A DNA stretch of 35,848 nt, taken from NCBI GenBank assembly GCA_902500755.1, contig CABVRV010000033.1, forward strand, positions 1 to 35,848. Direction: 5' to 3'. Within the stretch, counting starts at the first letter, position 1. Every line of letters starts with the position of its first letter. Below the pieces are notes generated by a model. It made no database searches. It saw only the letters and a program-made list of their open reading frames with translations, and was not told the origin of the DNA. A program made the position numbers and the translations under genes. The stretch is from an uncultured Nitrospira sp. (GTDB taxonomy: Bacteria; Nitrospirota; Nitrospiria; Nitrospirales; Nitrospiraceae). Shown here in pieces: positions 6,510 to 33,500 of this stretch.

Positions 6510-6981
6510 GACAGGCTTCACATTCCTGGATGATCCGTTTCACAACGTGATCCAATGCCTCGCCCATAGGGGGCGACAACGGTTGGCCGAGCTCAATATT
6601 CCCAACCTCGACTCCGTACACGATGACGGTAGCTGGAAGGACGTCCATTGCCCGGGCCAGCTCGATCGCCTCCGATACCCCGATGGCATGGCTGGAGCGA
6701 GGAAAGACTTGTCCACCGATCCGGCTCACCGACGCATCGAGTCGATAGATACTGCCGGGAGCCTTCCCACCGCGTGCAGCATCGATCAGAATCACAACGG
6801 ACGCGCCCTTCATCAGTTCGATGAGGTCAACGCCCGCCATCCCCGCTTCGATCACCTCGGCACGGTCACCGATTGTTTGCCGAAGTCGGCGGACAGTCAG
6901 AAGACCGACGGCATCATCACCTCGCAGGTCGTTGCCAAGGCCGATAATCCGAATGGAGGAGGGAGGACCGTTTGTTTTCAC
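6502..6981 (-). CDS. [NiFe] hydrogenase maturation endopeptidase (HybD/HycI type)
   Basis: About 159 residues. It cleaves the C-terminal extension of the large subunit after nickel insertion. The signature [13 protein letters not shown] opens the protein, and two further metal-ligand positions typical of HybD/HycI appear as LIDAARGG (Asp) and SSHAIGV (His). The GTG at 6981 is chosen as the start: it overlaps the stop of the large-subunit gene as GTGA and places the signature about 13 residues in. An ATG further upstream (7050) would lie well inside the large-subunit gene. Position directly after its substrate gene, and before hypA and hypF, is typical. Confidence 0.92.
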
Positions 6982-8288: not shown

Positions 8289-8324
8289 TCAGCCCTCGAA
8301 GGACGTTCCGCTTCATTACACAGG

Positions 8325-9149: not shown

Positions 9150-9158
9150 TGTTTCGCT

Positions 9159-10010: not shown

Positions 10011-10016
10011 ACGTCG

Positions 10017-14635: not shown

Positions 14636-14995
14636 ATGAAGACGATGTCGACTCTCGCCCTGTTGTTCGTCGCCCTCTCGACCTCTGTGGTCTTGGCTCA
14701 AGCGATTCGAGGAGATTCAAAGGCCGGACAGGGTGTGTATGAGCAACAGTGTCTCCGTTGCCATGGAGCTAACCTGGACGGGAATGGGCCTGACAGCCAA
14801 GATTTGATCGTCCAACCAGCCGATCTTCGATCTCAGATCAGTCGTTCGAAGACGGATTGGGAACTGCTCGTTGCGATTTCGAACGGCGTCTTATTCAGCC
14901 CGATGCATAGCTTTCGCGGCAAACTGACGGATCAGCAGATGTTGGATGTGCTGTCTTATATTCGATCCATCTCACCACCGGACGTCACGAGTTAG
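14636..14995 (+). CDS. Monoheme cytochrome c
   Basis: 119 residues with a signal peptide (MKTMSTLALLFVALSTSVVLAQA) and one heme site CLRCH. The probable distal Met is in GVLFSPMHSF, followed by the class I C-terminal helix LTDQQMLDVLSYIRSI. It should carry electrons in the periplasm. The ATG at 14636 is preferred over one 15 bases upstream because GGAG lies just before it and the signal peptide begins there. It is a close paralogue of the cytochrome at 22171-22530, with the same length and the shared GVLFSPMH segment. The neighbouring redoxin-CcdA fusion suggests a linked redox function. Confidence 0.9.
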   Translation: MKTMSTLALLFVALSTSVVLAQAIRGDSKAGQGVYEQQCLRCHGANLDGNGPDSQDLIVQPADLRSQISRSKTDWELLVAISNGVLFSPMHSFRGKLTDQQMLDVLSYIRSISPPDVTS

Positions 14996-19798: not shown

Positions 19799-19984
19799 TT
19801 ACTGACATGCGGCCATTTTCTCGACATCAGACCACGCAGTTTTTGTCTTCCTCATGATACTTTTTTGAATCCTGTAACCCTCACACTGCAAACTCAACAC
19901 CCACTTTCCGCCCATGCACGCCTCAAGCGTGATGAGCATTTCCAAACTGAACTCGTCCCACTTGGCTCGCACTAGGATGCCCAT
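19799..19984 (-). CDS. Possible small protein after brnA, doubtful
   Basis: A 61-codon frame starts inside the end of brnA (its ATG overlaps the last codons, ATGGGCATCCTAG) and runs to 19799. The product begins MGILVRAKWDEFSLEMLITL and contains a KSIMRKTKTAW segment. An overlapping start allows translational coupling with the antitoxin gene, the only reason to list it. No family resemblance, and chance is a real alternative. Confidence 0.25.
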   Translation of the reverse strand: MGILVRAKWDEFSLEMLITLEACMGGKWVLSLQCEGYRIQKSIMRKTKTAWSDVEKMAACQ

Positions 19985-20190
19985 TTCATGTGGAGTTTTC
20001 GGTGATGCATCGCGCAGTCTCGAAGGTAAAGATTGATCAGGCTCTGGTACGGGATCCCCATTTCCTCCGCAATGGACTTGAAATAGGTAACCGTATCGCA
20101 GTCCAGCCGCATCGTGACCGGCTGTTTCAAATTCTTGACATACGGATTCTTTCGCCCTTTCATCTTAGAGAAGTCGTAATGGTCTCTCAT
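19972..20190 (-). CDS. brnA: BrnA-type antitoxin
   Basis: 72 residues from MRDHYDFSKMKGRKNPYVKN. The C-terminal half (VTMRLDCDTVTYFKSIAEEM, GIPYQSLINLYLRDC) is the ribbon-helix-helix DNA-binding fold of BrnA/CopG-type antitoxins, which neutralise BrnT and repress their own operon. The ATG at 20190 overlaps the stop of brnT as ATGA, so antitoxin translation follows toxin translation. An in-frame ATG five codons upstream lies within brnT and is less likely. The gene order toxin-then-antitoxin is standard for brnTA. Confidence 0.87.
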   Translation of the reverse strand: MRDHYDFSKMKGRKNPYVKNLKQPVTMRLDCDTVTYFKSIAEEMGIPYQSLINLYLRDCAMHHRKLHMKWAS

Positions 20191-20495
20191 TGTCTTTGCC
20201 TCCAATATTCCCGCTCCTCACCTTTATCGGCCTTTCTTGCTGAGAACAGCCGCACTACGCTTTCGCTCTCCCTAAAGCAGTGACATACAACGATCACTCG
20301 CAACCTGAAACTCATCCCGAGCAGGATAAAGCGGTCTTCTGCTCCGGAGTGGTCAGGGTCAAAGTATTGAACGGCATGCTCGTCATAAAACACCGTTCGT
20401 GCCTCTTCAAATGAAATGCCGTATTTCCTGAGATTGGTTTTCTCCTTCGCCGCATCCCACTCAAACCGAATCCCATCCATCCGTACACTGTACAT
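20187..20495 (-). CDS. brnT: BrnT ribonuclease toxin
   Basis: 102 residues (or 97 from the internal MDGIRFEWD). The BrnT signature is complete: FEWDAAKEKTNLRKYGISFE, EARTVFYDEHAVQYFDPDHS, EDRFILLGMSFRLRVIVVCH, ending with REYWRQRQ-type R/E residues. BrnT is a RelE-like ribonuclease that stops translation under stress and is held by BrnA. Unlike the remnant at 1-58, every core segment is present, so the module is probably functional. It borders the cytochrome/cupredoxin block. Confidence 0.88.
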   Translation of the reverse strand: MYSVRMDGIRFEWDAAKEKTNLRKYGISFEEARTVFYDEHAVQYFDPDHSGAEDRFILLGMSFRLRVIVVCHCFRESESVVRLFSARKADKGEEREYWRQRQ

Positions 20496-20560: not shown

Positions 20561-21040
20561 CTACTGCTCCGGATGGGGATCTTTTCTGATGAGGGCGAGG
20601 TAGAGCAAGGTGTCGGCGAGGTCTTGATCGGTCATGGTGTGGTCGGGAAACATGCCGGTGCCAGGATGGCCTTCTCGAATAGCGCGGGCCCGTTCCTTGT
20701 TATTTTTCAAGCGCAGGACCTCCGGATTCCGCAAGTCGGTGGGGGGAGGATTCAGTTTCGCGATGAGCGCGGCGGTGTCCGCTTCCAGTCGTGGTGTCTT
20801 AGACAAGTACCCATCGATCCCATGACAGTAGTAGCACACACCTTTGCCGTTAAAAATATCCCGGCCTTGCAGGATATTGCCCTTTAACTTGCCGCTCGGT
20901 TGCGCTGAAGGAGACTCGGCCCAGGCGCGATCAGCAACAGAAATCGGCTCGACTCCCAGCCAGATCATGATAAGCATGCTGAACGAGGTTGTCAGTTTGA
21001 CCAGCAGATTGAGACTACGGTAACTGAACAGATGTCTCAC
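20561..21040 (-). CDS. Monoheme cytochrome c
   Basis: 159 residues starting with GTG. It has a signal/anchor region (MRHLFSYRSLNLLVKLTTSF...AWAES) and one heme site CYYCHG preceded by GRDIFNGKGV. The likely distal Met is in HPGTGMFPDH, followed by TMTDQDLADTLLYLALIR. The GTGM segment is shared with the cytochrome at 24385 and the last domain of the tetraheme protein. It probably acts as a periplasmic electron carrier. It is the last gene of the minus-strand redox block, 27 bp after the hemerythrin gene. Confidence 0.9.
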   Translation of the reverse strand: MRHLFSYRSLNLLVKLTTSFSMLIMIWLGVEPISVADRAWAESPSAQPSGKLKGNILQGRDIFNGKGVCYYCHGIDGYLSKTPRLEADTAALIAKLNPPPTDLRNPEVLRLKNNKERARAIREGHPGTGMFPDHTMTDQDLADTLLYLALIRKDPHPEQ

Positions 21041-21067
21041 GCTTTGCCGTCCATTCTTTGATTTCCG

Positions 21068-21547
21068 TCAGTGGTCACTGCAACAAGCATTGTACCGGTC
21101 TTCCGGAATACTCTTCATGTTACTGAAGACGGTGGTGCGTTCTTCCGCACTGGTCACGTTATCGATCGCAGGATAGAGCGCCCGTTCTTCCTTTCGATTA
21201 TGCGAGCCCAATAGCTGTAAGAGCGCCTGTTCCTCCTGATCGGTATCCAGATTCTGCCCTTCCACTTTTTGGTGGATCACATCCAGCAACTGTTTGATCT
21301 GGCTATGTTCATGTCGCATCATGGGCGTCGGCCCGTCCTCGATCATCCCGGTTTTCTCTTCCCAGATTGGAAAGAGCAACTCCTCTTCCCACACAATATG
21401 CCGCTGGAGGCCCATCTTAAACTCCTTGAACGCTGCCTTGGCCTGGGCAAAGTCCGAACGTTTCATCGTGTGAAAGGTCTTGAACAACTCATCCAGACGG
21501 TCGTGATCCTTTTCATAGCATGTCGTGATGGTCTGTGATTCACTCAT
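21068..21547 (-). CDS. Hemerythrin (HHE) domain protein
   Basis: 159 residues. A four-helix HHE domain with the expected carboxylate and His ligands: KDHDRLDELF near the N-terminus, RHIVWEEELLFPIWE, MRHEHSQIKQLL and GSHNRKEERALYPAID. It has no signal peptide, so it is cytoplasmic. Di-iron HHE proteins bind O2 or NO or help repair Fe-S clusters (YtfE/ScdA type), but this protein lacks the ScdA N-terminal domain. The C-terminal NACCSDH has vicinal cysteines. Role inferred: O2/NO sensing or storage beside the cytochromes. Confidence 0.9.
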   Translation of the reverse strand: MSESQTITTCYEKDHDRLDELFKTFHTMKRSDFAQAKAAFKEFKMGLQRHIVWEEELLFPIWEEKTGMIEDGPTPMMRHEHSQIKQLLDVIHQKVEGQNLDTDQEEQALLQLLGSHNRKEERALYPAIDNVTSAEERTTVFSNMKSIPEDRYNACCSDH

Positions 21548-21619
21548 GGTGTGGTCCTTGTAACATGAATCGATGACCTAGGTAGTTGGGCATAAAACGG
21601 CGAATGAATCGCATGATCG

Positions 21620-21934
21620 CTATCCGTCACGGTATTTGTCCATTTTTTCTTTCATCGCTTCTCGACCGGCCTTCACTGCCGCTTCTACATCCGCTCGCCG
21701 TTCATCCACGAAATGCTTGCCTCGTTCAATGACCTCATCAAGAGCCGCTCGCGCCTCCTTTGCCCTTTCGATCATTTCGTCTTCCGTCCTTCGGGCATGG
21801 CGTTGTATCACGCGACGCGTATCCTCACCGGACTTGGGAGCGAGAAGAATGCCGGCGATCATTCCTCCGATTGCTCCGCCGAGAAATGCGAGGAACACCG
21901 TTTCAGGCGAACTTCTGCTGTCCTGATTTGCCAT
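21620..21934 (-). CDS. YtxH-domain protein
   Basis: 104 residues. A short hydrophobic Gly-zipper (FLAFLGGAIGGMIAGILLAP) precedes the diagnostic APKSGEDTR, then a long charged helix (TEDEMIERAKEARAALDEVI, then ADVEAAVKAGREAMKEKMDK), the layout of YtxH/Gas-vesicle-like stress proteins. It is probably anchored in the membrane with a coiled helix outside it. The family is induced by general stress in Firmicutes and is common in Nitrospirota; the biochemical role is unknown. It stands between a cytochrome gene and the hemerythrin gene. Confidence 0.87.
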   Translation of the reverse strand: MANQDSRSSPETVFLAFLGGAIGGMIAGILLAPKSGEDTRRVIQRHARRTEDEMIERAKEARAALDEVIERGKHFVDERRADVEAAVKAGREAMKEKMDKYRDG

Positions 21935-22170
21935 GATGAATCCTCCCTAGTGAAGCATGTATCTATTTGTTTGGACAGCGCGGTCTATGCGAGGAATCCT
22001 CGTCAGCGCTCTCAGCTTATTGCACATTGATGAGATCTTACGCCATCAACACTGGATCAACAACCAGTCATTCTACGGAACTTCTTGGCGGACACCGAGC
22101 GGAGCGGTGTTGCGAAAGGGCATCGGCGAACGCGGCCTTTTCATATCCCCTCCGTATACCTTCACCTCAG

Positions 22171-22530
22171 CTAGCCGACGGGATTGAACGGAGCCAAACT
22201 ACGAATGTAGTTGAGCACATCACGAATCTCTTGATCCGACAGCCGATCGGCCCATCCGTGCATTGGACTAAAAAGGACCCCCTGTTTGATCGCAAGATAC
22301 AAGTCCATGTCGGTCTTGGTGCGCGATTTTGCTGCCCGAAAATTCGCCGGCGGAACGATGAGCTCCTTGATATCGGGCCCCAACCCATCACCCGAGGTTC
22401 CATGGCAGCCGACACAGTGCTGTTGAAAAATCCTCTCTCCGTTCTTCGTACTTCCCGTATGGCTTTGAGCCAGAGCCGTAGATCCGGTCAAAACGACCAC
22501 GACGGCGCTGATCACTAGACGTAAAAACAT
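22171..22530 (-). CDS. Monoheme cytochrome c
   Basis: 119 residues with signal peptide (MFLRLVISAVVVVLTGSTALAQ) and one heme site CVGCHG. The distal-Met region is GVLFSPMHGWADRLSDQEIR, and the final helix is DVLNYIRSLAP. The frame extends 21 codons upstream but the ATG at 22530 begins a proper signal peptide. Closely related to the cytochrome at 14636-14995 (same length, same GVLFSPMH segment, similar ELIVPPANFR). It should be a soluble periplasmic carrier. About 85 bp separate it from the Spy-like gene upstream. Confidence 0.9.
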   Translation of the reverse strand: MFLRLVISAVVVVLTGSTALAQSHTGSTKNGERIFQQHCVGCHGTSGDGLGPDIKELIVPPANFRAAKSRTKTDMDLYLAIKQGVLFSPMHGWADRLSDQEIRDVLNYIRSLAPFNPVG

Positions 22531-22616
22531 GCGAGCCCCTCCGTTACCCTCTCCTCTGGACCACACGATCAACCAAGGAGGTACACATTCCAAGGACGGA
22601 CGGCGACGATCGATTT

Positions 22617-23282
22617 TCAGTGCTGGTGTTCCTGTGTTCCACTGGATCCTCCAGCCCCGTGATCGCCACTACTCTGCCCGTGTCCACCACTCCCCATGCT
22701 TCCGCCTCCCATACCACCCATTCCACTACGGCCAATTCCGCCCATACCACCCATCATCCCACCGCGACCCATGCCGCCCATTCCACCTCCGTGTTGTCCT
22801 TCGCTTGTACTCTTCATTTGTTCACGATGGGCGCGGTCCTTTTCTCGTTGATCGGGAGTCAACAGGGCCATGGCGGTGCGCGTGCTTTTGATCGCCTCGA
22901 ACAGACAGGCCCCTTCCGCCTTTTTCAATTGCTCGACTTTAGCCTGGATTGCTTTGAGATCAGTCTGCTCCTCATCCAACAGCGCGTGCAGTTCGAGCTT
23001 CGCCACCTTGGTGTCGGCTTCCAACCTGGCCTCCGAGCGTTTGAAGTCCAGCTGGATGGCCTTGAGTTTGCCGATCTGTTCCTGCGTCAACCCAAACTCC
23101 TTGGCATGCTTCAACAGATGTTTCAGGTAGTGCCCACTGTGATCGTCCTGTTCCTCCTGATCGTGACCACCATGCCCCTTCTTCTCATGGCCTTCGTCGG
23201 CAAAGACGGAAAACACGGTTATCGCAACAATGAACGCGGCTCCTCCGAATCCTGTCACCCACCATCCTTTCAGCTTCGTCAT
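22617..23282 (-). CDS. Spy/CpxP-like periplasmic protein with His- and Met-rich ends
   Basis: 221 residues. After a signal anchor (about 1-28) comes a His-rich stretch (EGHEKKGHGGHDQEEQDDHS), then a helical LTxxQ-type domain (FGLTQEQIGKLKAIQLDFKR; AMALLTPDQREKDRAHREQM) like Spy/CpxP chaperone-sensors. The tail is a Gly-Met-His low-complexity region (MGGMGRGGMMGGMGGIG, ending HQH). Both ends could bind Cu or Zn ions in the periplasm. It sits between a cytochrome and the Cu/Zn superoxide dismutase, consistent with metal handling. The low-complexity tail produces a long open frame on the other strand that is not a gene. Confidence 0.8.
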   Translation of the reverse strand: MTKLKGWWVTGFGGAAFIVAITVFSVFADEGHEKKGHGGHDQEEQDDHSGHYLKHLLKHAKEFGLTQEQIGKLKAIQLDFKRSEARLEADTKVAKLELHALLDEEQTDLKAIQAKVEQLKKAEGACLFEAIKSTRTAMALLTPDQREKDRAHREQMKSTSEGQHGGGMGGMGRGGMMGGMGGIGRSGMGGMGGGSMGSGGHGQSSGDHGAGGSSGTQEHQH

Positions 23283-23686
23283 GATTAGTACCTCCAGGGC
23301 TCGACCAACGTGCGTATTGGTGTTCTCTGTGTGGAGCGACTTTCAACCCGGTCACGAGGCGCGAAGAGCCTGCGTCCTCGGATCGCATTCACACGCCTTC
23401 ATCCGTTTCCTCTTATTGCGTGAGGGATGTTCTCCTCAAGATTGGATTCAGAAAAGCTGAGTGCGATTTTAGTGCCTTCACGAGGTTTGAGGATCTGTGC
23501 GATGAATATTCAATGAAATCGCAGGTTGAGGCGGTTCAACCACACAAGAACGGTCCGATGTGATGCAGAAATACTCACAGCGCTATTGTCAGATGAGGAA
23601 AAACGCAACAACGGATGAGGCGAACACGCTGTCGCACTCGCTCACGGCGAGTGCGACCGTAGACTCTATGGGCTTCTGAACGCCTA
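23283..23686. other. Intergenic stretch of about 400 bp with one strong hairpin
   Basis: No coding region is supported. It lies between the start of the Spy-like gene and the end of the superoxide dismutase gene. The right end carries the 11-bp stem-loop at 23631-23657. The left part presumably carries the promoter for the Spy-like gene and cytochrome, but no clear -35/-10 or -24/-12 element was found. Confidence 0.5.
23631..23657 (-). terminator. 11-bp perfect stem-loop after the superoxide dismutase gene
   Basis: GTCGCACTCGC, loop TCACG, then GCGAGTGCGAC form a perfect 11-bp stem 30 bases beyond the end of the superoxide dismutase gene. It is GC-rich and well placed to end that transcript, although no T run follows on the minus strand (sequence AGCGTGTTCG). 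It could also act as an RNA-stability element. Confidence 0.5.
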
Positions 23687-24268
23687 TTACTGCTTCACAA
23701 TGATGCCGCACGCGATTCTCGGTCCACCCGGTGCGTCTTTGGTCGGTGGATCAGGCAGGTATTGATCCGGAAGCTCGTGGATGATGAAAGCGCTGCCATC
23801 ACTGTCGAACAGCGTATTCAAGCCGCCGGAGAGCGTCACTCGACTTGTCACGGTATAGAGAGAACCCTTTCTGGCACTATCGACGGCCAGATTCTGTAGA
23901 TCCCCGAGATGATAGGGATGATTGCCGAGACCAGGGCTCACATTGGCTTCCGGATTCACCTGTGGGTCAATGTTGCCGTCATAATGCCCCTTGGCGGCTG
24001 AAAATGGCTCGCAGTTTCCAACTTCATGAATATGGATCCCATGTAGGCCAGGGGTCAGTTTGCTTTCAGGAGTGCCTTGGACCTTCAGCTTGATCCGCAC
24101 GCGCCCTTCATACTCTTCATAGAGGTCGGCTTCCCCCGTGATGCCGAGCCCGGCAATCGCCGCTTTTGCACGCAACTTGGTATCCTGCTTGCCGGTGTGA
24201 TAGGACGAACAGCCGCTCAACAGCAGCCCGATCACCAACCCTGTTCCCACCGTTCTTACTGTGCTCAT
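23687..24268 (-). CDS. sodC: Cu/Zn superoxide dismutase, lipoprotein
   Basis: 193 residues. The signal peptide ends in a lipobox (LLLSGCSSY), so it is probably lipid-anchored facing the periplasm. Copper and zinc ligands appear in order: GLHGIHIHEVGNC (Cu His-x-His), AKGHYDG (bridging His), NHPYHLGDL (Zn His; Asp after it) and SAFIIHE (Cu His). The active-site Arg is in GGPRIACG, and the two cysteines for the intramolecular disulfide are present. It converts superoxide to H2O2 and O2. The neighbours (cytochromes, His-rich Spy-like protein) suggest defence of the periplasmic electron chain. Confidence 0.92.
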   Translation of the reverse strand: MSTVRTVGTGLVIGLLLSGCSSYHTGKQDTKLRAKAAIAGLGITGEADLYEEYEGRVRIKLKVQGTPESKLTPGLHGIHIHEVGNCEPFSAAKGHYDGNIDPQVNPEANVSPGLGNHPYHLGDLQNLAVDSARKGSLYTVTSRVTLSGGLNTLFDSDGSAFIIHELPDQYLPDPPTKDAPGGPRIACGIIVKQ

Positions 24269-24384
24269 ACGGCCCTCCCCCTCGGATGACTTCCTTCAGC
24301 GTCCACGCGACCAAGATATCCTAGGTATGATAGCCGCAGCGACCGAGCGGTGCAATCTCTTATCTTTCGGCTGAGCAGGATTGA

Positions 24385-24936
24385 TCATCGTTCACAAGCT
24401 TCGCCTTCGCACTCCTTCATTCCACCACTCCGCCCACGATGCTCCATTCCTCCTCTACCACCCATAGGTCCCATGCCTTCTCCGCGACCCCTCATTCCTG
24501 GCCCGTGCATGCCCGCGAAGGTTTGTTCATACTGAATGAGGGCCCAGATTTCTTCATCCGACAATACCTGTCCAAACCCAATCATGCCGGTACCGGGAGA
24601 GCCGTGCTTGATTACCCAGAAAATTTCGCCTTCCGTGCGGTGCCGCCAAAATCCATGGTGTTGAAAATTCCGAGGAGAGGGATTTAGTTGGGCGCCTCCT
24701 GGTCCGGCGCCGTCCCCGTCTACTCCATGACAGGTAAAGCACGTGCCCTTGCCGTGATAGAGCGCCTTCCCTTTTTCTATGATTTCTTGAGATGCGGGGA
24801 GCGGGCTCCTGAGAGCTCGGGCTTCGGCCAGCTTATCGGCAGGCACTCTCGGCTGCATCATATGCCGTTCTGCCGCACCGTTGGGGACCTCGAACAACAC
24901 CAAGATAGCCAGCAACGGAAACATCTTTATCTTCAT
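24385..24936 (-). CDS. Monoheme cytochrome c with Met/Gly/Arg-rich tail
   Basis: 183 residues with signal peptide (MKIKMFPLLAILVLFEVPNG). Single heme CFTCHGVDGDGAGPGG. Middle region SPRNFQHHGFWRHRTEGEIF, distal-Met segment GSPGTGMIGFGQVLSDEEIW, final helix ALIQYEQTFAG. The last ~40 residues are a low-complexity Met-Gly-Arg tail (GPGMRGRGEGMGPMGGRGGM) ending in ECEGEACER, similar in style to the tail of the Spy-like protein. The tail might bind copper (inference). The body resembles the fourth heme domain of the tetraheme protein at 26739-28154. Confidence 0.88.
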   Translation of the reverse strand: MKIKMFPLLAILVLFEVPNGAAERHMMQPRVPADKLAEARALRSPLPASQEIIEKGKALYHGKGTCFTCHGVDGDGAGPGGAQLNPSPRNFQHHGFWRHRTEGEIFWVIKHGSPGTGMIGFGQVLSDEEIWALIQYEQTFAGMHGPGMRGRGEGMGPMGGRGGMEHRGRSGGMKECEGEACER

Positions 24937-25096
24937 CGCCCTGCTCCTTCCTCAATCATCTCGGCACTTCTGTTCTCCAGCAGCTCAATGAGGGCCTTTC
25001 TCGTGTCGAGCATACGGAAAGCATCCTCGGTCAGCATGGAACTTGGATCTCCGAATCGTCAGCTGCCATACGACACTTCCTTCTTCCGGTCTTAGA

Positions 25097-25456
25097 TCAG
25101 AAGGAGACGCTCCGATCTCGGTCTGCCACGGCTTTGATGTAATCCGGCATGCCTTTGATGGAGGCGCCGGCTACCAGATCCGCCGTGCCGACTTGTCTGG
25201 CGACCGCACAAGCTCCGCAGACCCAGATCGGCACTCCTGCCGCTTGCACGGCGGCAAGCAGCTCTTTCAGCGGGGTCAGGTTCACGCCGGTCACATGATC
25301 CGCCACACCTTTGCGACCCAACGTCACGGCTTCGTTCCATAGCCACAGAACCACATCGTGTCCTTGCTCTTTGGCCGTCTTGGCGGCCATAAACGGCAAA
25401 GTCGCCATCGTGGGATCGTCCGTCCCTCGACTACCTGAAATAATGAACGTCGGCAT
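25097..25456 (-). CDS. DsrE/DsrF-like family protein
   Basis: 119 residues, no signal peptide, so cytoplasmic. Start MPTFIISGSRGTDDPTMATL is typical of DsrE-like folds, and VPIWVCGACAVARQVG places two cysteines at 80 and 83, near the persulfide-carrying Cys of DsrE-type sulfurtransferases. Most DsrE-like proteins bind or transfer sulfane sulfur; some are only structurally related. It sits in a run with a TsdA-like cytochrome and an OsmC protein, which supports a sulfur-linked function without proving it. Confidence 0.85.
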   Translation of the reverse strand: MPTFIISGSRGTDDPTMATLPFMAAKTAKEQGHDVVLWLWNEAVTLGRKGVADHVTGVNLTPLKELLAAVQAAGVPIWVCGACAVARQVGTADLVAGASIKGMPDYIKAVADRDRSVSF

Positions 25457-25527
25457 GATTGACTCCTTGAATAGCTGGAGGTTCTACGCAACGTAGGCCG
25501 TTCTCACGAACCGGTGCTGCGCTCCGG

Positions 25528-25995
25528 TTATTGTCCCACGACGATTCGGCCACCCATATCGTCATCTGCCCGATGAAGGGGACAGTAGAATCGATAGGTC
25601 ACCGTCTCTCCCTCGACGGCGGTCGCATCGCTCGCCATCCGATCCCTGTCGATCACGATCTGCTCGGTCCCCGCTGGCGGAACAGTAACCCGAACCGGCC
25701 TGATGATCTGAACCCCTTCCTGCTCTACAGACTCAAACAAGGCCGGGGCTTCGAACACATGGGTCCGTTCAGTCGGATTCTCAAACCGAAAAATCAGCGG
25801 CTCTGTGAAATCCATGCTTCGTTGAATGGCGATGTCCATGGGAAGCCAAATTGCTTGCTGATTTTCGACATCACGGGCGACAAACGCGATCTCCTTCGGC
25901 CAGCCGGGCGACGGCATGGCCAGCAGTCCGCCGCCAATCACACACCCAAGCCCTACACCCATGGCACGAGCGGAGAGTCTACCCAATCCCTTCAT
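25528..25995 (-). CDS. Exported cupredoxin-like protein with complete type 1 copper site
   Basis: 155 residues; hydrophobic signal (AMGVGLGCVIGGGLLAM) then a beta-rich domain. Type 1 copper ligands are all present: H79 in RTHVFEAP, then C138, H141 and M147 in FYCPLHRADDDMGG. The spacing between His141 and Met (six residues) is longer than the usual plastocyanin loop but occurs in some cupredoxin families. It probably carries electrons in the periplasm beside the cytochromes. The gene is 71 bp upstream of the DsrE-like gene, with no gene between. Confidence 0.85.
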   Translation of the reverse strand: MKGLGRLSARAMGVGLGCVIGGGLLAMPSPGWPKEIAFVARDVENQQAIWLPMDIAIQRSMDFTEPLIFRFENPTERTHVFEAPALFESVEQEGVQIIRPVRVTVPPAGTEQIVIDRDRMASDATAVEGETVTYRFYCPLHRADDDMGGRIVVGQ

Positions 25996-26205
25996 GTGGT
26001 GTTCCTTTGACGCACAAGACGACCAGCCAGCTGCTCCCCTTCACGTCATCCATCTCAAGAACAGGACCGCCCGTCCCAGCTGAGCTCCAGTGTGAACTGT
26101 CGCCGGCCAGGACTGGGATCCTCACCCTTCGCCCCCTCCGGAAGGAAACGCATCGATTCTCTCCCGTGGGTGGAAGCACGTGTCAGACGATGACCAAGAC
26201 GTGAC

Positions 26206-26700
26206 TCAGCCGCCTCCGATATCCCCACGAGTTTCAATCACAAACAACTCCCCTTTCACTTCAGGATGGATGTCGCACCATAAAGCATGCCGCACACTTT
26301 CGGCTCCACCTGTCATCGGATCGAAGTTCGAGGGCGCTGTCGCGAACCGCAACGTCATCGTCTTTCCCGCGTCGACATGAAACGACTTGAATTTCTTTCC
26401 TCGTATCTCAGTCCCGCCTTCCACCTTCACGGGAATGTCTTTGAACAACGTTGATGCTAACCCGTGCGTGACCGAATCCTGATTTCGGACGACGATGATC
26501 GTGTCCTGCGACGGCATCGTGAACCCAGCGGTCTCATAGCCGTGCTGGCGGTCCTTGATGGTGATCTCCACCTTCGAGGGCGGCGCTCCCATCCCCACGG
26601 CCTGTGCATAGGCGATATCATGGCCACCCGCCAGTACCGCCCACGCAACGACTGCAAACAGAACGGCTGAATTCACCGCTCCATATCGACTCACTCCCAT
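26206..26700 (-). CDS. Exported cupredoxin-like protein without axial Met
   Basis: 164 residues with a signal peptide (about 1-33, ending AYAQA). The domain has H79 in SVTHGLAST and the ligand loop HALWCDIHPEVKGELFVIE, giving C142 and H145. The position that is normally the axial Met (CxxHxxM) is V148. Without it the site should be three-coordinate with a raised redox potential, as in Leu-containing fungal laccases (inference). Another Met could replace it, or the protein may bind copper for storage or delivery. It is about 50 bp ahead of the tetraheme cytochrome stop-to-start neighbour. Confidence 0.82.
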   Translation of the reverse strand: MGVSRYGAVNSAVLFAVVAWAVLAGGHDIAYAQAVGMGAPPSKVEITIKDRQHGYETAGFTMPSQDTIIVVRNQDSVTHGLASTLFKDIPVKVEGGTEIRGKKFKSFHVDAGKTMTLRFATAPSNFDPMTGGAESVRHALWCDIHPEVKGELFVIETRGDIGGG

Positions 26701-26738
26701 AATCGACCTCCTTTTTTACACGTACACATGGACCTTCC

Positions 26739-28154
26739 TTACTTATCCTTCGCTAAACTCCGGATGTAGTGGATGAGTTGCCAGACCTGCTCATCCGGCA
26801 ATGTGCCGAACGGCATCATCCCAGTTCCCGAAGAACCATTCTTGATGATCCAGAACAGCTGCCCATCCGGCAGGTCCCGCATCATCGCGCCACATGTAAA
26901 ATTTCGGGGTGGCGGCACTAAGGCCGCACCCATCAGCCCCTTGCCATCTCCTTGCTCACCATGACACATGACGCATGCGACGGGCTGCGCGGTCCTCAGG
27001 AATAATTCTTTTCCCGCCTTGATCGCCCCGGCAGACGACGGAAACGGGTTCGTTTTGGCGAGGAGGTCTGCCGGAGCCTGTGCTGTCTTGCGCGGTTGCA
27101 CACAGACACTCCCTTCAGTACCTCCTGCTGCCGCAGCAACATCCGGGACCCCTTTGAAGGTCACCTTCAAATAGGCGATCACGTCCGCCACGCCCTGTTG
27201 ACCGATCGTCAAATTCCAATACGGCATGTTCGGCGATTTGCCGACTGCCGGTCCGCCATGATTGATGACGTTGTAGAGATATTCGATCGGGAGCTTTTCG
27301 AAGGGAATGTTGGCATGTATCGCCGGTTTGGGTTCCAGGCCGGAAGCTGCCGGTCCGTCGCCCTTGCCGGTGAAACCGTGGCATTGAGCACAATATTCCT
27401 TGTAGAGCGTCTTGCCGCGATCCGAGCTCGCGTTGGCGAACTCCTGACCCGCCCATGGCTCATAATATTGAAAGTCCGGCACCCCTTGCACGGCGAGGAA
27501 GCCGATCACCGCCCGCAATTGCGCATCGGTTGCATCGGCCAGAAATTCCCCATTGTGGACCGTGAAGTCTTGCGGATTCTGGCCGAAGCGATACAGCCAG
27601 TCCGGGTTGTATCGTTGACCGGCATGCTGCAAGGCGGCGCTCTGGGGCCCCCCAATCAGTTTGCCATTCTCCTCGATCGTATGGCAGCCAAGACAGGCAT
27701 GGGCTTTATAGGCCATCCCGCCGAACGTCACGTCGAACTTTGTCACTTTTGAAAGATCGAATGCGCCGACCGTCACGCGCGGGTCTTTGTTGTGTTCGGC
27801 AAAGTAATCCGCGAGTGCGCTCGCCTCCGACTCTGTGACCATCGGATGCCTGGACGGCACGCTCGTGAGATCCCATAGATATCCCTTGGCATAGAGTGGA
27901 GCTTCCTTCCCGGTGAGCCAACGAATGAGCCACGACCGTTGGTACTTGCTGCCGGCCCACATCAAGTCAGGCGCGTGAAGCTTGAAGCGCGAATCCGGCC
28001 GACCTTCCAGCCGGTGGCACTGCACACAGGTCTGCTGGATGATGTCTTTCGCGCGCGCGTGATCACTCCCAAACGACAATTGCGGGGACGACATGAGTCC
28101 CAACAACACGAGCGCGGCGCTTCTAACGACCATCCGGATTCTCACCTCCAACAT
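26739..28154 (-). CDS. Tetraheme c-type cytochrome
   Basis: 471 residues with a signal peptide (VVRSAALVLLGLMSSPQLSF). Four heme sites lie at residues 43-47 (CVQCH), 154-158 (CLGCH), 255-259 (CAQCH) and 394-398 (CVMCH). Each is in its own class I-like domain; the last carries SSGTGMMPFG and WQLIHYIRSL like the single-domain cytochromes nearby. It looks like four concatenated monoheme cytochromes rather than a compact multiheme fold. The frame continues upstream to 28874, but that part overlaps OsmC and TsdA-like genes on the same strand and has no family resemblance, so the ATG at 28154 (AAAGGAG just before it) is used. A periplasmic electron conduit is likely. Confidence 0.9.
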   Translation of the reverse strand: MLEVRIRMVVRSAALVLLGLMSSPQLSFGSDHARAKDIIQQTCVQCHRLEGRPDSRFKLHAPDLMWAGSKYQRSWLIRWLTGKEAPLYAKGYLWDLTSVPSRHPMVTESEASALADYFAEHNKDPRVTVGAFDLSKVTKFDVTFGGMAYKAHACLGCHTIEENGKLIGGPQSAALQHAGQRYNPDWLYRFGQNPQDFTVHNGEFLADATDAQLRAVIGFLAVQGVPDFQYYEPWAGQEFANASSDRGKTLYKEYCAQCHGFTGKGDGPAASGLEPKPAIHANIPFEKLPIEYLYNVINHGGPAVGKSPNMPYWNLTIGQQGVADVIAYLKVTFKGVPDVAAAAGGTEGSVCVQPRKTAQAPADLLAKTNPFPSSAGAIKAGKELFLRTAQPVACVMCHGEQGDGKGLMGAALVPPPRNFTCGAMMRDLPDGQLFWIIKNGSSGTGMMPFGTLPDEQVWQLIHYIRSLAKDK

Positions 28155-28165
28155 CGCTGCTCCTT

Positions 28166-28582
28166 TCACGAAGGTTTCTCCGCACGAGGGTGGGGATTGA
28201 GTTCGATCGCCACGCCGGCAGGCACCGCGAGGGATTGATGCACTGTGCAGCCATGCGCGACCTTCAACAGGCGTTCTTTTTGTTCTGCGCTGATTCGATG
28301 GGGAAGATGGATTCCGATCTCGATACGACCGACACGGTGTGGAACTTCGGCCATCGTCCATTCCGCATCGACCGTCAAGCCATCTCGAGCAATGCCGTGC
28401 CGCCCACAGAATTGCCCGACGAAGTACGCGACACAACTCGCCACGGACCCGACAAAGAGTTCGACCGGACCCATTCCGGCATCCTGCCCTCCATCCTCCG
28501 CCGGCTGGTCGGTGATGACTCGATGTTTGCCGCTCACAATGTCGTAGCGTGTCCCTCCGTGAAAGGTGGCCGTAAGTTTCAT
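28166..28582 (-). CDS. OsmC-like peroxiredoxin family protein
   Basis: 138 residues, no signal peptide. The OsmC/Ohr fold shows in GPVELFVGSVASCVAYF (peroxidatic-type C50) and LLKVAHGCTVHQSL (second C112), spaced as in OsmC. Family members reduce organic hydroperoxides or, in the YhfA group, act on other thiol substrates. It is 11 bp upstream of the tetraheme cytochrome gene and 18 bp after the TsdA-like gene, so it is embedded in the redox operon. The product helps link peroxide or sulfur stress to the cytochromes (inference). Confidence 0.88.
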   Translation of the reverse strand: MKLTATFHGGTRYDIVSGKHRVITDQPAEDGGQDAGMGPVELFVGSVASCVAYFVGQFCGRHGIARDGLTVDAEWTMAEVPHRVGRIEIGIHLPHRISAEQKERLLKVAHGCTVHQSLAVPAGVAIELNPHPRAEKPS

Positions 28583-28600
28583 CTCTCTCCTGTCGCCCGC

Positions 28601-29455
28601 TCAATAGGGTACATCTGCCGGCTTGCCCCCCTTCGGCCAGTCGTGGATCTTGTCGGGAAAGTCCGGTCGAGGCTGCGTATTGATATAGGCCGCTGCATCG
28701 ATGGCTTCGTCGTCCGTCACCGTCCAGCCCCAGCCTCGCGGCATGTTGGCCTTGATAAACGAGGCGGCCACACTCACCCGCGCCATGCCTGCGCCGATGT
28801 TGTACGAACGCGGCCCCCACACAGGCGGTGCCGCCATGGTGCCTTGCCCGTCGGAGCCGTGGCAGAAGACACACTTTTTCTCAAAGACCTTCCTGCCGTT
28901 GAGAGGGTCAGGTTGATGGGTCGAGATGAGACGTGGGATTCCTCGCCATGGGACCTCAACGCCGGGCGGCATATTCTGCGACAACCATTCAATGTAGGCG
29001 ACGATGCCCGTCAGTTTGACACTGTCGGGTGGAAGTGCCTTGCCGTTCATACTGCGTTCGAAACACTCGTTGATTCGATCGGCCAGTGTCATCTGTCGGC
29101 CGGCTCGTTCACGATACTCCGGGTAGAGAGTGGCGATACCCACGAAGGATGCAGAGTTCGGGTTGAGCCCCGCATCTAAATGACAATTGGTGCAGGCGAG
29201 TGCGTTTCCAACGTACCGCTTCCCATATTCCTGCGTGTCGACAATCATCTTGTAGCCCAGGCGAATCTGCTCGCCTCTCAGATCCCCCGGAATCGTTTCG
29301 GGCGATGGCGGAACAAACAGCGCATCGACTGGCGACCCCGTGTTCCGACGAGCAGCCGCCTCCTCACTCTCCGTGACCCGTGGAGGTGGGACACAACTGA
29401 TCGTCCCCACCAGCGCACTCATCAGCACAATGCCTGCCGTGATCTGTCGGCTCAT
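28601..29455 (-). CDS. TsdA-like diheme cytochrome c (thiosulfate dehydrogenase family)
   Basis: 284 residues. Signal peptide with a possible lipobox (TISC at 18-21). Heme 1 is CTNCH (C88-H92), heme 2 is CVFCH (C195-H199). The segment ADRINECFERSMNGKALP contains C131, at the place of the unusual Cys heme ligand of TsdA, and PWRGI and IVAYIEWLSQNMP follow the TsdA pattern. FIKANMPRG (M238) matches the heme-2 distal-ligand region. TsdA enzymes oxidise thiosulfate to tetrathionate or run in reverse. That this protein does so is an inference from family signature. Neighbouring DsrE- and OsmC-like genes fit a sulfur role. Confidence 0.85.
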   Translation of the reverse strand: MSRQITAGIVLMSALVGTISCVPPPRVTESEEAAARRNTGSPVDALFVPPSPETIPGDLRGEQIRLGYKMIVDTQEYGKRYVGNALACTNCHLDAGLNPNSASFVGIATLYPEYRERAGRQMTLADRINECFERSMNGKALPPDSVKLTGIVAYIEWLSQNMPPGVEVPWRGIPRLISTHQPDPLNGRKVFEKKCVFCHGSDGQGTMAAPPVWGPRSYNIGAGMARVSVAASFIKANMPRGWGWTVTDDEAIDAAAYINTQPRPDFPDKIHDWPKGGKPADVPY

Positions 29456-29465
29456 AAAGTGGACC

Positions 29466-29684
29466 TCATTTCTTCATACCGGACGCCGAACAGTGTGTAT
29501 TGATCCCGAACAACGTAAACAGGGGACAATACCCCGCCGCTCCAGTGAGCAGCAGGATGGCCCCCACCGCAAGTGCCGTTCCCGCTATGGCAGTCGAAAA
29601 CCCCGCGAAGAGACCGATTATGATCGCCAGTAGCCCTGCTCCAATTCGGATAGGTCTCTCAATCCCTCCAACGTTACACGTCAT
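29466..29684 (-). CDS. DUF2892 (YgaP-like) membrane protein
   Basis: 72 residues. Start CNVGGIERPIRIGAG, two membrane segments, and the YCPLFTLFGINT end are the hallmarks of the DUF2892/YgaP transmembrane family. In some bacteria this domain follows a rhodanese domain (YgaP), which handles sulfur; here it stands alone. It lies 10 bp before the TsdA-like gene on the same strand and is probably co-transcribed. Its function in the stand-alone form is unknown. Confidence 0.9.
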   Translation of the reverse strand: MTCNVGGIERPIRIGAGLLAIIIGLFAGFSTAIAGTALAVGAILLLTGAAGYCPLFTLFGINTHCSASGMKK

Positions 29685-29772
29685 GGCATTACCTCCTCAT
29701 CGAAAAACAGAGTTGATCTTTATTTCCCTGATACGCTTATATGAGACAACTTCCACTTATTGGATTCATTCT

Positions 29773-30171
29773 TTAGGGTTGTCCACCGGACTCCACCCCG
29801 AGTGTGCGCACATAGGACAAGACGTCCCAAATTTCCTCATCGGAGAGAGCGTGTTTCCAGGCACCCATCGCCGTATTGGGTTTTCCTCCGTGAATCCGTC
29901 GAAACAAGGTCCCGTCGAGCCGACTCTGAACGGCGAGCGAGGTGAGGTCCGCCGGAGGTGGAACAAGTTTGATTCCGAGTCCCCCCTTCCCGTCGATTCC
30001 ATGGCAACGGATGCAGGTATTCACGTAAATTTCACGCCCACTGACTGAATCTCCACTTTTTGCTGAGACTGTCAGCTCTTTTACTCCAAGATTGCTGAAC
30101 CCCAGCGCCGCCATGCCAGACAACAGTGCGCAACAAACCAGCATCCGTCCAGTGATAGGCATCTTTTTCAC
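29773..30171 (-). CDS. Monoheme cytochrome c
   Basis: 132 residues, signal peptide (MPITGRMLVCCALLSGMAAL), heme CIRCHG preceded by GREIYVNT. Distal-Met region is GGKPNTAMGAWKHALSDEEI, final helix WDVLSYVRTLG. Same monoheme family as 14636, 20561, 22171 and 24385. It is the first gene of the minus-strand redox block and is divergent from the NRPS gene, so the 30172-30575 stretch should hold promoters for both. Confidence 0.9.
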   Translation of the reverse strand: MKKMPITGRMLVCCALLSGMAALGFSNLGVKELTVSAKSGDSVSGREIYVNTCIRCHGIDGKGGLGIKLVPPPADLTSLAVQSRLDGTLFRRIHGGKPNTAMGAWKHALSDEEIWDVLSYVRTLGVESGGQP

Positions 30172-30575
30172 CTTTCTACGCTGAACCTTGCGATCAGTAT
30201 GCCATTCCCCCTGTCACAGATCGGCACTATTCCCATTACCGAACAACGGCTTACGACGTTGCTTTAGAATGGATCGGAGAAGCGGACCTTGGACTGGTGA
30301 AGAACGCCACAGCACCTTATCCTCCGTTGACGCAGGATGCCACACAACTTCATCTCCGAGTGTTAGAGCCCCAGCAAATGTGAGTACAAAACGCTGAGCG
30401 AACTCGTTTCCCCCTGCCAGGTAGTGTGCCCATGAAGGAAGTCGATGCGATTCCGCTCGAAAATGAGAAATTCTTTCAACTTTTTCCTAAACCCACTACC
30501 CTATTCCTTCAGTAACCAGATTACTCGCAGGAGATATTTCCCCTTGGCCTAGTTTCGGATTTGGCGCCTCATTTG
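30172..30575. other. Divergent intergenic stretch of about 400 bp
   Basis: It separates the divergent cytochrome c gene (minus) and the NRPS gene (plus). No recognised gene is present. A stop-free plus-strand frame (30159-30383) ends ATHL-type residues QDATQLHLRVLEPQQM but has no start codon; see the findings. Promoters for both flanking genes must lie here; no clear -35/-10 or GG-N10-GC element was found. Confidence 0.5.
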
Positions 30576-33500
30576 ATGTCGCAACCATCCTCTCCGGCTA
30601 TACACAACCTCGCATCGCTCTTTCAGTGGAGTTGCCGGAGAAGTCCGAATGACCTGGCCTACGCGTTCGTCCGTGACAACCTCGAAGTTGAACACCACGT
30701 AACATTTAGTCAGCTTGAGCGCACGGTCTCTTCGCTTGCCGACCATCTTGCACGTGAGTTCTCACCAGGAACCAGGGCCCTTCTTCTCTACCCACAGGGG
30801 TTGGATGTCGTCTATGCATTTTGGGCATGTGCCTGTGCCGGTCTTGTTCCGGTTCCCGCTCCAGCTCCCGATCCCGTCCGGTGGAAACACAGCCTGCCAA
30901 GGCTTCGCGCCATTATCGAAGATGCCCAGGTATCGCTGGCACTCACGACTTCAAGTATCACGGCTCTGTCTTCAGAGTTCTCCATCGCCAAGGAGGTAGG
31001 TTCGATCAGGTGGATGGCAACGGATCAACCCTACGATTCAGTCGATTCGGTTGAGTTGCCACAGCTTCCCAGCACCACCCTTGCCTACTTGCAATACACC
31101 TCAGGGTCGACAGCCACTCCTCGTGGCGTCATGATCAGCCATGAAAACGTAATCTCCCACTGTAGGGCCTTGAGTCTGGTGGGAGAAGTGTCGAACAGGA
31201 GCCGGTCGCTCTGCTGGTTGCCCTACTTCCATGACTATGGATTACTGCACGGAATCATCGCCCCCTTTTATACCGGTAATCCCGCCTATCTGATGTCGCC
31301 CGTCACGTTCCTCCGGCGGCCATTACGTTGGCTCGAAGCGGTGGCTCGGTTTGGGATCACCCACAGCGGGGGACCGAATTTTTCCTATGAAGCTTGCCTC
31401 AGAGCTGTGCGGCAACAGAAAGGATGGCGGGCCGACTTGAGCAAGTGGGTGGTCGCCAGTTGCGGCGCCGAACCCATCCATCCCGATACAGTTGAGCGGT
31501 TTATCGACACTTTTGGCCCATATGGTTTCCGGCGAACCGCGTTCGCACCGGCGTATGGACTTGCAGAAGCCACGTTATCGGTGACGGTGAAGCGGTCCGG
31601 AACGGAGCCGAGCTTCTTGCATGTTGACGCCGACGCGTTGGCCGACTCGATCGTCAAGGAGTCGCCCCGGTCAGAACGAGGAACGCGGACACTCGTTGGA
31701 TGTGGGGTACCCCTCGAAGAGACTCATGTCCGGATTGTGAACCCGACTACTCGACGCGAGTGCCCACCCGGTGTGGTCGGAGAAGTGTGGCTGGCCGGAG
31801 CCGGGATCGGCGCGGGATACTGGGGCAAACCGGAAGAAACTGAAGCCATATTTAAAGCCTCGATTGCTGGATCCGGAGAGGGTCCCTACTTACGGACAGG
31901 CGACCTTGGATTTCTCCACCACGGAGAATTGTTCCTGACCGGACGCCTAAAGGACCTGATCATCGTGCGAGGACGGAACTATTCTCCCCATGATCTGGAG
32001 TGGACGGCCCAGCAAGCGCATTTCGGCTTGCGACGAGGATCTGGGGCGGCCTTCTCGATTGAGGGCAAGACGGGAGAACTGGTGGTGCTGGTCCATGAGA
32101 TCGACAGGCAGCTGTCCGAATCCGACCTGCCGGACGTGATGAACTGCATCCGTCGTGCGTTGGCCGACGAATATGGACTCGAACTCCACGCGGTGGTGCT
32201 GATCAAGTCCGGGACGATCCCCAGAACCTCCAGCGGAAAAATTCAGCGAGGCGTCTGCAAAGCCGCCTTTGAGTCAGGCCAACTCGCCATCGTGGCATCG
32301 AGCACATCGGACCCGGATCCGCAATATGATGCCGAGGGTTCACCGAGCGAGAGTCCACACACCATCGTCGAGAAAAGGCTGGCGGATATCTGGCAAGAGG
32401 TGCTTGGAGGAGATCCTCCAGATCGCCATGCGAACTTCTTTGCACTCGGAGGCAATTCGATCCTTGCCGCACAGATTGTTGCCCGCATCCTCGATCTGTT
32501 CCATGTCGAACTCCCCATCAGCCTTCTGTTCGAGTGTCCAACGTTGTCTGCGCTTGCCGCCCGGATTGAGGAGGGAAGCGCGAGTTTGGATGACGTGGGC
32601 CAGGCCACAGGTGGCGACGGCAGGACGCAGGTTCCAGCCATTCCGCTTTCCTCGCCCTCCATACGGAAAGGCAGAATTCCTCTCAGCCCCTCGCAGCAGC
32701 GACTGTGGTTTTTGGAGCAGGTGCATCCTGGGAGCGCGATCAACCATATTTCCATGAAGGTGCGTATCCGGGGGTCGGTCAACCCCGATGTGTTGGAGCG
32801 CTCGGTTCAGGAAATCATCCGTCGACACGAGATTCTCCGAACTCGTTTTGGATCGGAGAAGGGTGAAAGCTTCGCAGAAATATCCCCTGAAGGCCTCTTC
32901 ACGCTGACCGAGCATGATTTCAAAACACTGAGTCGGACCGAACAAGAAATCGAGGTGCGGCAGTTCCTTCGAACGGAGGCCAGTCGACCATTTGACCTCA
33001 GCCAAGGGCCATTGTTCAGAGTTGCGCTACTGGCGCTCGATCAAGATCTGCATGTCTTGGAGCTGACGTTCCATCGGCTCGTCGCGGATGGTTGGTCCCT
33101 TCGCCTCTTCTGCAAAGAATTGGCCTTCCTGATGGAGGCCGGTGGGAATGCTCAAGAAGCCCGTCTTCCCACACCGTCCGTTCAGTATGCGGACTACGTG
33201 AACTGGCAGCGGGCCAGGCTTGATGGAGGCCTTCGTGAGGTCGACCGCGAGTACTGGATCAAGCAGTTGCGCGATGCCCCGCCGCCTGCTGAATTACCCG
33301 CCGACCGTCCACGGCCAAGGGTGCGTACGTTCGAGGGGGCTGCCCAGTTTCGGTCTCTTTCTCCTCGACTAACCAACTTGCTGAGCCTCTTTTGTCGGCA
33401 GCAGAGCGTGACCCGATTCATGGTGTTGTATGCTGTGTTTGTCACATGGCTGCAACGCTACACACGCGAGTCGGATGTTGTGATTGGATCGATCGTGTCC

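Follow-up and report, generated by a model that had tools for sequence, protein, structure and literature searches.

A TsdA-type enzyme and a tetraheme cytochrome c in a conserved gene cluster of Nitrospira: a candidate sulfur-oxyanion redox module

Nitrospira are very widespread nitrite oxidisers, complete ammonia oxidisers among them. The closest described systems to the Nitrospira gene block studied here are the diheme enzyme TsdA of A. vinosum and C. jejuni, the SorAB pair of Starkeya, cytochrome 579 of Leptospirillum, and a gene cluster of Candidatus (Ca.) Nitrotoga. The block (genes g1 to g15, positions 20561 to 30171) lies in a 35,848-nucleotide contig of an uncultured Nitrospira sp. 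(CABVRV010000033.1, assembly GCA_902500755.1), the whole of which is called the window. It was singled out in an original prediction, made from the letters alone, as a periplasmic redox block of six cytochromes, two cupredoxins, and SodC matching no named system. The absence of a named match did not hold, because one member, g3, is a TsdA-type enzyme.

Papers are cited here for the passages that bear on these genes. The bifunctional TsdA of C. jejuni has Asn254-Met255 at haem 2, where the A. vinosum enzyme has Lys208-Met209 (PMC5146829). The presence of tsdA or tsdB was reported for 67 metagenome-assembled genomes (MAGs) of 13 phyla, which the passage does not name (PMC10367259), and a Nitrospirae MAG expressing sox genes was described in a passage that does not specify the tsdA-bearing MAGs (PMC9326234). 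Sulfite oxidation has been proposed in N. marina and Nitrotoga (PMC8115632, PMC6050957). In a 2025 comparison of Nitrospirales genomes, SorAB and SQR are the only systems that the sulphur section names, and SorAB is given as largely confined to lineage IV (PMC12342949); "tsdA" does not occur in the main text of that paper. We found no paper assigning TsdA to Nitrospira in a search that left most subscription literature outside, and the relevant passages of PMC9239080, PMC9326234, PMC11784365, PMC8115675, and PMC10367259 make no such assignment.

The TsdA-type enzyme g3 and its gene block

Judged by sequence, g3 is a TsdA-type thiosulfate dehydrogenase / tetrathionate reductase. Its product has the two-domain, two-CxxCH architecture of TsdA, with a SoxA-TsdA N-terminal domain (PF21342, 53.9 bits), a C-terminal class I cytochrome domain (PF13442, 40 bits), and CxxCH motifs at 88 and 195. 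Sequence searches against known structures gave A. vinosum TsdA (4wqc) among the best matches, at E 5e-58 over residues 42-272 and thus over most of the length of g3. The chain 5lo9, which is titled Cytochrome C and which we take to be a TsdB-TsdA fusion, was matched at E 1e-40, whereas the diheme cytochrome 1h31, presumably SoxA, was far behind the TsdA structures (E 2.6e-5). The score on the SoxA model TIGR04484 was 39 bits against a cut-off of 110, and g3 is thus nearer to characterised TsdA than to SoxA.

The predicted haem ligands agree with this assignment. As in the A. vinosum and C. jejuni enzymes, there is a Cys at haem 1 and a Met at haem 2. Cys131, which aligns with the A. vinosum Cys and is the predicted haem-1 ligand, was kept in 73 of 73 orthologs; Met238, the predicted haem-2 ligand, was present in 72 of the 73 aligned sequences and the preceding Asn237 in 71, and both CxxCH motifs were invariant. 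Unlike A. vinosum TsdA, g3 has Asn and not Lys before the haem-2 Met, which matches C. jejuni. We therefore regard g3 as a TsdA-like protein whose haem-2 site is of the C. jejuni type; because the C. jejuni enzyme is bifunctional, g3 may act as a tetrathionate reductase at low oxygen. It differs from known TsdA in its linkage to a tetraheme cytochrome, OsmC, and DsrE. The genes of the block are listed below (aa, amino acids; scores are for the Pfam or NCBIfam model named).

g1: 29773..30171, minus strand; monoheme cytochrome c, 132 aa, signal-like N-terminus; CxxCH at 53; PF13442, 46 bits
g2: 29466..29684, minus strand; YgaP-like transmembrane protein, 72 aa; PF11127, 63 bits
g3: 28601..29455, minus strand; TsdA-type diheme thiosulfate dehydrogenase / tetrathionate reductase (by sequence), 284 aa; PF21342, 53.9 bits
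g4: 28166..28582, minus strand; OsmC-family protein, 138 aa, without a signal-like N-terminus; PF02566, 46.8 bits
g5: 26739..28154, minus strand; tetraheme cytochrome c, 471 aa, start picked within a longer frame; four CxxCH; PF13442/PF00034
g6: 26206..26700, minus strand; cupredoxin-like protein, 164 aa; Cys/His/His kept, Val at the axial Met position
g7: 25528..25995, minus strand; cupredoxin-like protein, 155 aa, axial Met not conserved; copper proteins of the PDB matched by the predicted fold
g8: 25097..25456, minus strand; DsrE-family protein, 119 aa; PF02635, 72.6 bits
g9: 24385..24936, minus strand; monoheme cytochrome c, 183 aa, cytochrome 579-like; NF033864, 129.9 bits (cut-off 280)
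g10: 23687..24268, minus strand; Cu/Zn superoxide dismutase SodC, 193 aa, lipobox-like LSGC; PF00080, 89 bits
g11: 22617..23282, minus strand; Metal_resist / Spy-CpxP-like periplasmic protein, 221 aa; PF13801, 31.8 bits
g12: 22171..22593, minus strand; monoheme cytochrome c; listed at 140 aa, but probably starting at an internal ATG (MFLRLV...); PF00034, 49.3 bits
g13: 21620..21934, minus strand; YtxH-like protein, 104 aa; PF12732, 46.9 bits
g14: 21068..21547, minus strand; hemerythrin-domain protein, 159 aa; PF01814, 54.8 bits
g15: 20561..21040, minus strand; divergent monoheme cytochrome c, 159 aa; CxxCH at 69; PF00034, 21.9 bits (cut-off 21.3)

All 15 open reading frames run from 30171 to 20561 on the minus strand, as had been stated. 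The six cytochromes and SodC were borne out by CxxCH motifs and Pfam, while the two cupredoxins are held less firmly. The c-type cytochrome genes g1, g3, g5, g9, g12, and g15 carry 1, 2, 4, 1, 1, and 1 CxxCH motifs, or ten haem sites, and all six reached a Pfam cytochrome cut-off, g15 barely; Pfam likewise supported SodC, OsmC, DsrE, Metal_resist, YtxH, hemerythrin, and the YgaP transmembrane protein. The description of the block as periplasmic applies to part of its products, because OsmC, DsrE, and hemerythrin had no signal-like N-terminus by a crude hydropathy measure. Six of the 29 above-cut-off PF13442 matches in the genome fall inside the 9.6-kb block, where 0.07 would be expected if they were randomly placed; since cytochrome genes cluster anyway, this density demonstrates clustering and no more.

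Linkage and gene content across relatives

The association of TsdA with g5 was examined in 148 Nitrospiraceae genomes, with TsdA matches taken at E<=1e-30 and g5 counted so as to include fragments and leave out single-domain relatives, as judged by the analyst. TsdA was found in 101 genomes, g5 in 110, and both in 93; in 89 of these 93 the two genes were no more than 10 kb apart. Their co-occurrence had a p value of 2e-12, uncorrected for kinship.

Gene neighbourhoods were compared in loci comprising 51 stretches chosen for g5 and for breadth plus 80 from named genomes, kept of a further 125, or 131 in total, of which 112 were distinct and nine betaproteobacterial. The full-context set consisted of the 68 Nitrospirota loci with at least 7 kb on each side of g5; one locus (L084) had a disrupted g5, and one titled Nitrosospira (L107) was counted as Nitrospirota. 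Genes were labelled by their best tblastn match, which is rough for small cytochromes, and the counts are uncorrected for kinship. Because the loci were picked for having g5, the counts tell how often each gene accompanies it. The most regular partners were OsmC (57 of 68), g9 (54), TsdA (53), DsrE (52), g1 (51), and g2 (46), followed by YtxH (31), hemerythrin (28), g12 (26), Spy-like (23), g6 (20), g15 (18), g7 (17), and SodC (14). Flanking genes outside the block but within 7 kb of g5 served as controls: BrnA was found in 0, BrnT in 2, and the start of the nonribosomal peptide synthetase (NRPS) gene in 12 of the 68 loci. Three farther flanking genes (7-12 kb from g5, and thus weak controls) gave 0, 10, and 2.

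These results demonstrated that the genes of a core, TsdA-OsmC-(SorAB)-g5-DsrE, stand in the same order across genera and that most genes just outside the core differ, as the suggestion of a conserved multi-gene redox system implied. Scattering of the genes in relatives, which had been named as grounds for abandoning that suggestion, was not seen for the core: TsdA, OsmC, DsrE, and g9 had counts of 52-57 of 68, against 0, 2, and 12 for the flanking genes; the outer genes g10-g15 were less regular (14-31 of 68), and the position of SodC varied. This variable composition, the shifting place of SodC, and the spacing of several genes (116-404 bases apart) would fit a loose gathering of small redox and stress genes that have nothing to do with one another and are kept by drift, not by function. 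We consider that explanation improbable, given the stable core order across genera, the differing genes outside, and the fact that g5 and DsrE are neighbours in Nitrotoga as well.

Relatives carry additional sulfur genes at the same place. A molybdenum enzyme (PF00174+PF03404) sits between OsmC and g5 in many of them and after g5 in a few; its best structure match was SorA (2blf, E 4e-69, and E 2e-72 with the copy of Ca. N. defluvii). This SorA-like gene, with a cytochrome adjoining, was present in 31 of the 68 loci, 27 of which also had TsdA, and TsdA or the SorA-like gene stood alongside g5 in 57. The arrangement resembles SorAB of Starkeya in that, in the relatives, a SorA-like protein lies beside a cytochrome with a SorB-like part. 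It differs in that it is not found in the window and in that the tested copy, whose cytochrome carries a second class I domain, was far under the NCBIfam SorA and SorB cut-offs: the Ca. N. defluvii gene (L132:8228-9313) scored 324.9 bits on NF052245 (cut-off 600), although SorA was its best model, and its adjoining cytochrome, the one copy tested, matched SorB weakly (38 bits, cut-off 93). Because of these scores below cut-off, the gene beside g5 in Ca. N. defluvii may have been overlooked in PMC12342949.

Further genes at the 68 loci were PPK2 (40), cytochrome b (20), Rieske (19), and a sulfur transporter, Sulf_transp (16). In Ca. N. defluvii the cluster has a full form, in the order OsmC2, g1, g2, Rieske, cytochrome b, g1-like, TsdA, OsmC, SorA-like, SorB-like, g5, DsrE, PPK2, g9, YtxH, cytochrome c', hemerythrin; the window cluster is without SorAB and PPK2 at this place and has the cupredoxins g6-g7 behind g5 instead. 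PPK2 was found in the cluster in 54 distinct Nitrospirota loci (for example L083:8048-9109), and in 38 of the 68 loci with full context it was the next gene after DsrE. In Erythrobacter, PPK2 lowers TsdA-dependent sulfur formation via c-di-GMP (PMC12172448), which may or may not bear on PPK2 in these clusters.

Proposed role and the g5 loci of Ca. Nitrotoga

We lean, with some reserve, towards the interpretation that the block serves nitrifying Nitrospira as an accessory periplasmic module for the redox chemistry of sulfur oxyanions, with g5 as the dedicated partner of TsdA. In such a module, TsdA would interconvert thiosulfate and tetrathionate, and in relatives the divergent SorAB-like pair would add sulfite oxidation at the same place. 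Electrons would pass between TsdA and the tetraheme g5 as a dedicated intermediary. From g5 they would be carried by the small cytochromes (g1, g9) or by cupredoxins into the general pool of cytochrome c and on to an oxidase; where a lineage has the Rieske/cytochrome b pair next to the cluster, they could go to quinone instead. Reactive sulfur on the inner (cytoplasmic) side would be dealt with by OsmC and DsrE, and SodC would keep side reactions driven by superoxide in check.

Several results weigh against this interpretation. No TsdA model was named for g3 in the NCBIfam scan, the content of NCBIfam for TsdA being unchecked. Seventeen of the 110 genomes with g5 were without TsdA, and 8 of the 101 with TsdA were without g5. 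Neither TsdA nor a SorA-like gene was present at 11 of the 68 g5 loci; seven of the 11 held the trio g5-g6-g7 without the remaining core (two of the seven with a g1-like cytochrome), and one genome (G062) contained both the core form and the trio. The best SorA match in the window genome is a distant one (39%). Promoter- or terminator-like sites within the block were not above those of shuffled sequence and gave no support for a single transcript; the gaps between g2, g3, g4, and g5 are 10-18 bases, and elsewhere the gaps are 23-404 bases. Also in this group are the Ca. Nitrotoga loci described next.

The betaproteobacterial g5 set consisted of six named Ca. Nitrotoga and three MAGs of the same family (L138, L149, and L150). 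At these nine loci the neighbours of g5 included SodC in 7, DsrE in 7, cytochrome c peroxidase (CCP) in 3, the catalase KatA in 5, and the catalase-peroxidase KatG in 1, so that a peroxide-removing gene lay by g5 in 6 of the 9. The shared proteins are similar to those of the window (g5 67-74%, SodC 64-78%, and DsrE 82-88% identical, the last in 7 of the 9 loci). The nine loci differ in being without TsdA or OsmC, and TsdA was not found in any of the nine genomes, one of them a MAG of 1.1 Mb, with a query that matched its own genome. In another Nitrotoga, NtogaGL1b, tsdA with cytochromes has been reported (PMC9239080). The genes around g5 at the nine loci make the strongest case for a role in stress and against a purely thiosulfate-related role of g5. 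According to the main rival explanation, the block would chiefly serve as an island against oxidative/nitrosative stress, in which the periplasmic cytochromes would supply electrons to peroxide-removing enzymes, SodC would clear superoxide, OsmC would reduce hydroperoxides, hemerythrin would sense or bind O2 or NO, and TsdA would be an incidental electron source or a guard against thiol oxidation. The SodC, OsmC, and hemerythrin genes of the window and the CCP genes at 3 of the 68 Nitrospirota loci are consistent with it. We nevertheless consider it rather unlikely: SodC was present at just 14 of the 68 loci and in 41 of the 148 genomes (35 of these also had g5, and in 25 of the 35 the two genes were no more than 10 kb apart), its co-occurrence with g5 was not significant (p 0.06, against 2e-12 for TsdA, both uncorrected for kinship), and no KatA or KatG relative lay by g5 at any of the 68 loci.

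In the locus of Ca. Nitrotoga HW29 (L140:8374-9428 and L140:18342-21394), genes for a g9-like cytochrome and a DUF1264 protein were observed close to g5, and about 7 kb away there were multicopper proteins with a monoheme and a diheme cytochrome, the diheme one being related to the first half of g5.

Within the samples searched, g5 is confined to one order of Nitrospirota and the family of Ca. Nitrotoga. At E<=1e-40 it was found in 61 of 246 genomes of a phylum-wide sample, all in two families of one order, and in 14 of 120 genomes of the HW29 family; a sample of the class around HW29 gave 1 of 274, which was HW29 itself. Occurrence in two distant groups, both with nitrite oxidisers among their members, together with an AMO-family gene in the window genome, could indicate that the cytochromes work in the main chain of nitrite or ammonia oxidation and carry electrons from nitrite oxidoreductase or hydroxylamine oxidation to the oxidase. 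That is very improbable, because the enzymes of the cluster are sulfur enzymes, and because 12 genomes at least 90% complete, with an NxrB-like gene (TIGR03478, below cut-off), had at most a single-domain match to g5, which makes g5 look dispensable. Nitrite oxidation as the main role was rejected on the basis of these 12 genomes.

A tree of g5 was made from 58 of 96 usable sequences (the window, the nine betaproteobacterial rows, 45 taken at random, and the remaining cupredoxin-only rows) with a midpoint root; it omits L159 and L160, and the second Nitrospirota family is scarcely represented. The nine betaproteobacterial rows formed one clade (98/86) inside the Nitrospiraceae rows, which suggests a single transfer of g5 from Nitrospira. 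A three-haem form missing the last domain occurred in about 15 genomes; because relatives of the first two domains and of the last domain also exist as separate proteins, g5 is modular. It is possible, if doubtful, that g5 is an interchangeable tetraheme hub of nitrite-oxidising lineages, connecting whichever enzyme is its neighbour (TsdA, divergent SorAB, cupredoxins, or in Nitrotoga peroxidase) to the cytochrome pool, and that Ca. Nitrotoga acquired it from Nitrospira, perhaps along with DsrE.

Accompanying proteins, genome setting, and significance

DsrE (g8) was the most conserved protein of the block, with 82-97% identity from Nitrospira to Nitrotoga loci (L081 had only 52%) and the motif CGACA in 97 of 99 copies, duplicate loci counted. 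It reached the cut-off of the superfamily PF02635 but not of the TusD/DsrE sulfurtransferase model TIGR03012 (13.1 bits, cut-off 89.25).

For g7 there was no cupredoxin match by sequence. Its predicted model was moderate (pLDDT 68, pTM 0.62), and a Foldseek search against the PDB gave 169 matches at E<=0.001; among the best 50 of the 169, 49 were copper proteins and one was a phage baseplate protein. Laccases and further multicopper oxidases were among the fold matches, as were a Cupredoxin_1 protein and a nitrite reductase of the copper type. In 20 sequences of g7, His79, Cys138, and His141 were invariant and position 147 was variable. In g6, His79, Cys142, His145, and Val148 were invariant (20 of 20), with Val at the axial Met position; if copper is bound, a high-potential site would be expected. 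The predicted model of g6 was poor (pLDDT 40), and its fold search gave no match. A relative in L054, 50% identical, has C-x2-H-x2-M, with Met at the Val position of g6, and two relatives matched Cupredoxin_1 weakly and below cut-off (E 4e-4 and 4e-3). The assignment of g6 as a cupredoxin, made from the motif and the two weakly matching relatives, is thus less firm.

The small cytochromes had been proposed to share a distal segment and to have arisen by local duplication. By eye the segment was clear in g1, g9, and g12 and in the last domain of g5, and weak in g15. A domain tree was made from 72 rows (the window plus 14 chosen loci, with unexpected haem counts dropped) and 109 columns, in which the deep forks are weak. 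It required 7 label changes against a minimum of 6. Single groups were formed by g9, g5 domain 3, g5 domain 4 (weakly, 54/0), TsdA domain 2, and g15; g1 and g12 each required two changes, from two long-branch rows. Because the units group by ortholog across genera and not by genome, recent local duplication is unsupported. The last domain of g5 and g9, identical at 42 of 88 positions, may go back to an old common origin. Both proteins match the model of cytochrome 579 of Leptospirillum (NF033864), g9 at 129.9 and g5 at 83.3 bits, as does g15 at 22.8 bits, all below the curated cut-off of 280; g9 was therefore not accepted as cytochrome 579.

The window belongs to a 3.83-Mb genome that is 94% complete, and the AMO-family gene (E 4e-101) makes it likely that the organism is a comammox Nitrospira; among the related contigs that carry a name, most belong to Nitrospira. 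Another contig of this genome (G000:C104:3008-4424) has a distant sulfite-oxidase-family gene, 39% identical to the SorA-like protein, that adjoins a cytochrome c domain. Immediately downstream of the block is a BrnT/BrnA-type toxin-antitoxin pair (19972-20495), and on the plus strand at 30516-35846 the start of an NRPS-like gene, with AMP-binding (two stretches), condensation (one), and carrier (two) domains, runs off the contig end. The window also contains an additional cytochrome c domain (14720-14962, plus strand) and, at 3781-11159 on the minus strand, HypF, a HycI-type protease, a nickel hydrogenase large subunit, a small-subunit-like protein, an FAD/NAD reductase, and a 4Fe-4S protein, a set that we take to resemble a group 3b [NiFe] hydrogenase. 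No RNA family reached its gathering score in the window. A tRNA-Ser called by ARAGORN (28988-29076, plus strand) lies antisense within g3 and was set aside as probably false.

The gene content suggests that Nitrospira nitrifiers can also gain or dump electrons via sulfur compounds. If g5 is such a hub, many Nitrospira, including comammox members, would join in thiosulfate, tetrathionate, and sulfite cycling, a trait unlisted in the sulphur section of PMC12342949. If the proposed role is correct, a common TsdA with its own cytochrome, in many lineages next to a sulfite dehydrogenase, would link nitrification with sulfur cycling. It could explain survival without nitrite or at low oxygen, and it would be relevant to wastewater bearing sulfide or thiosulfate.

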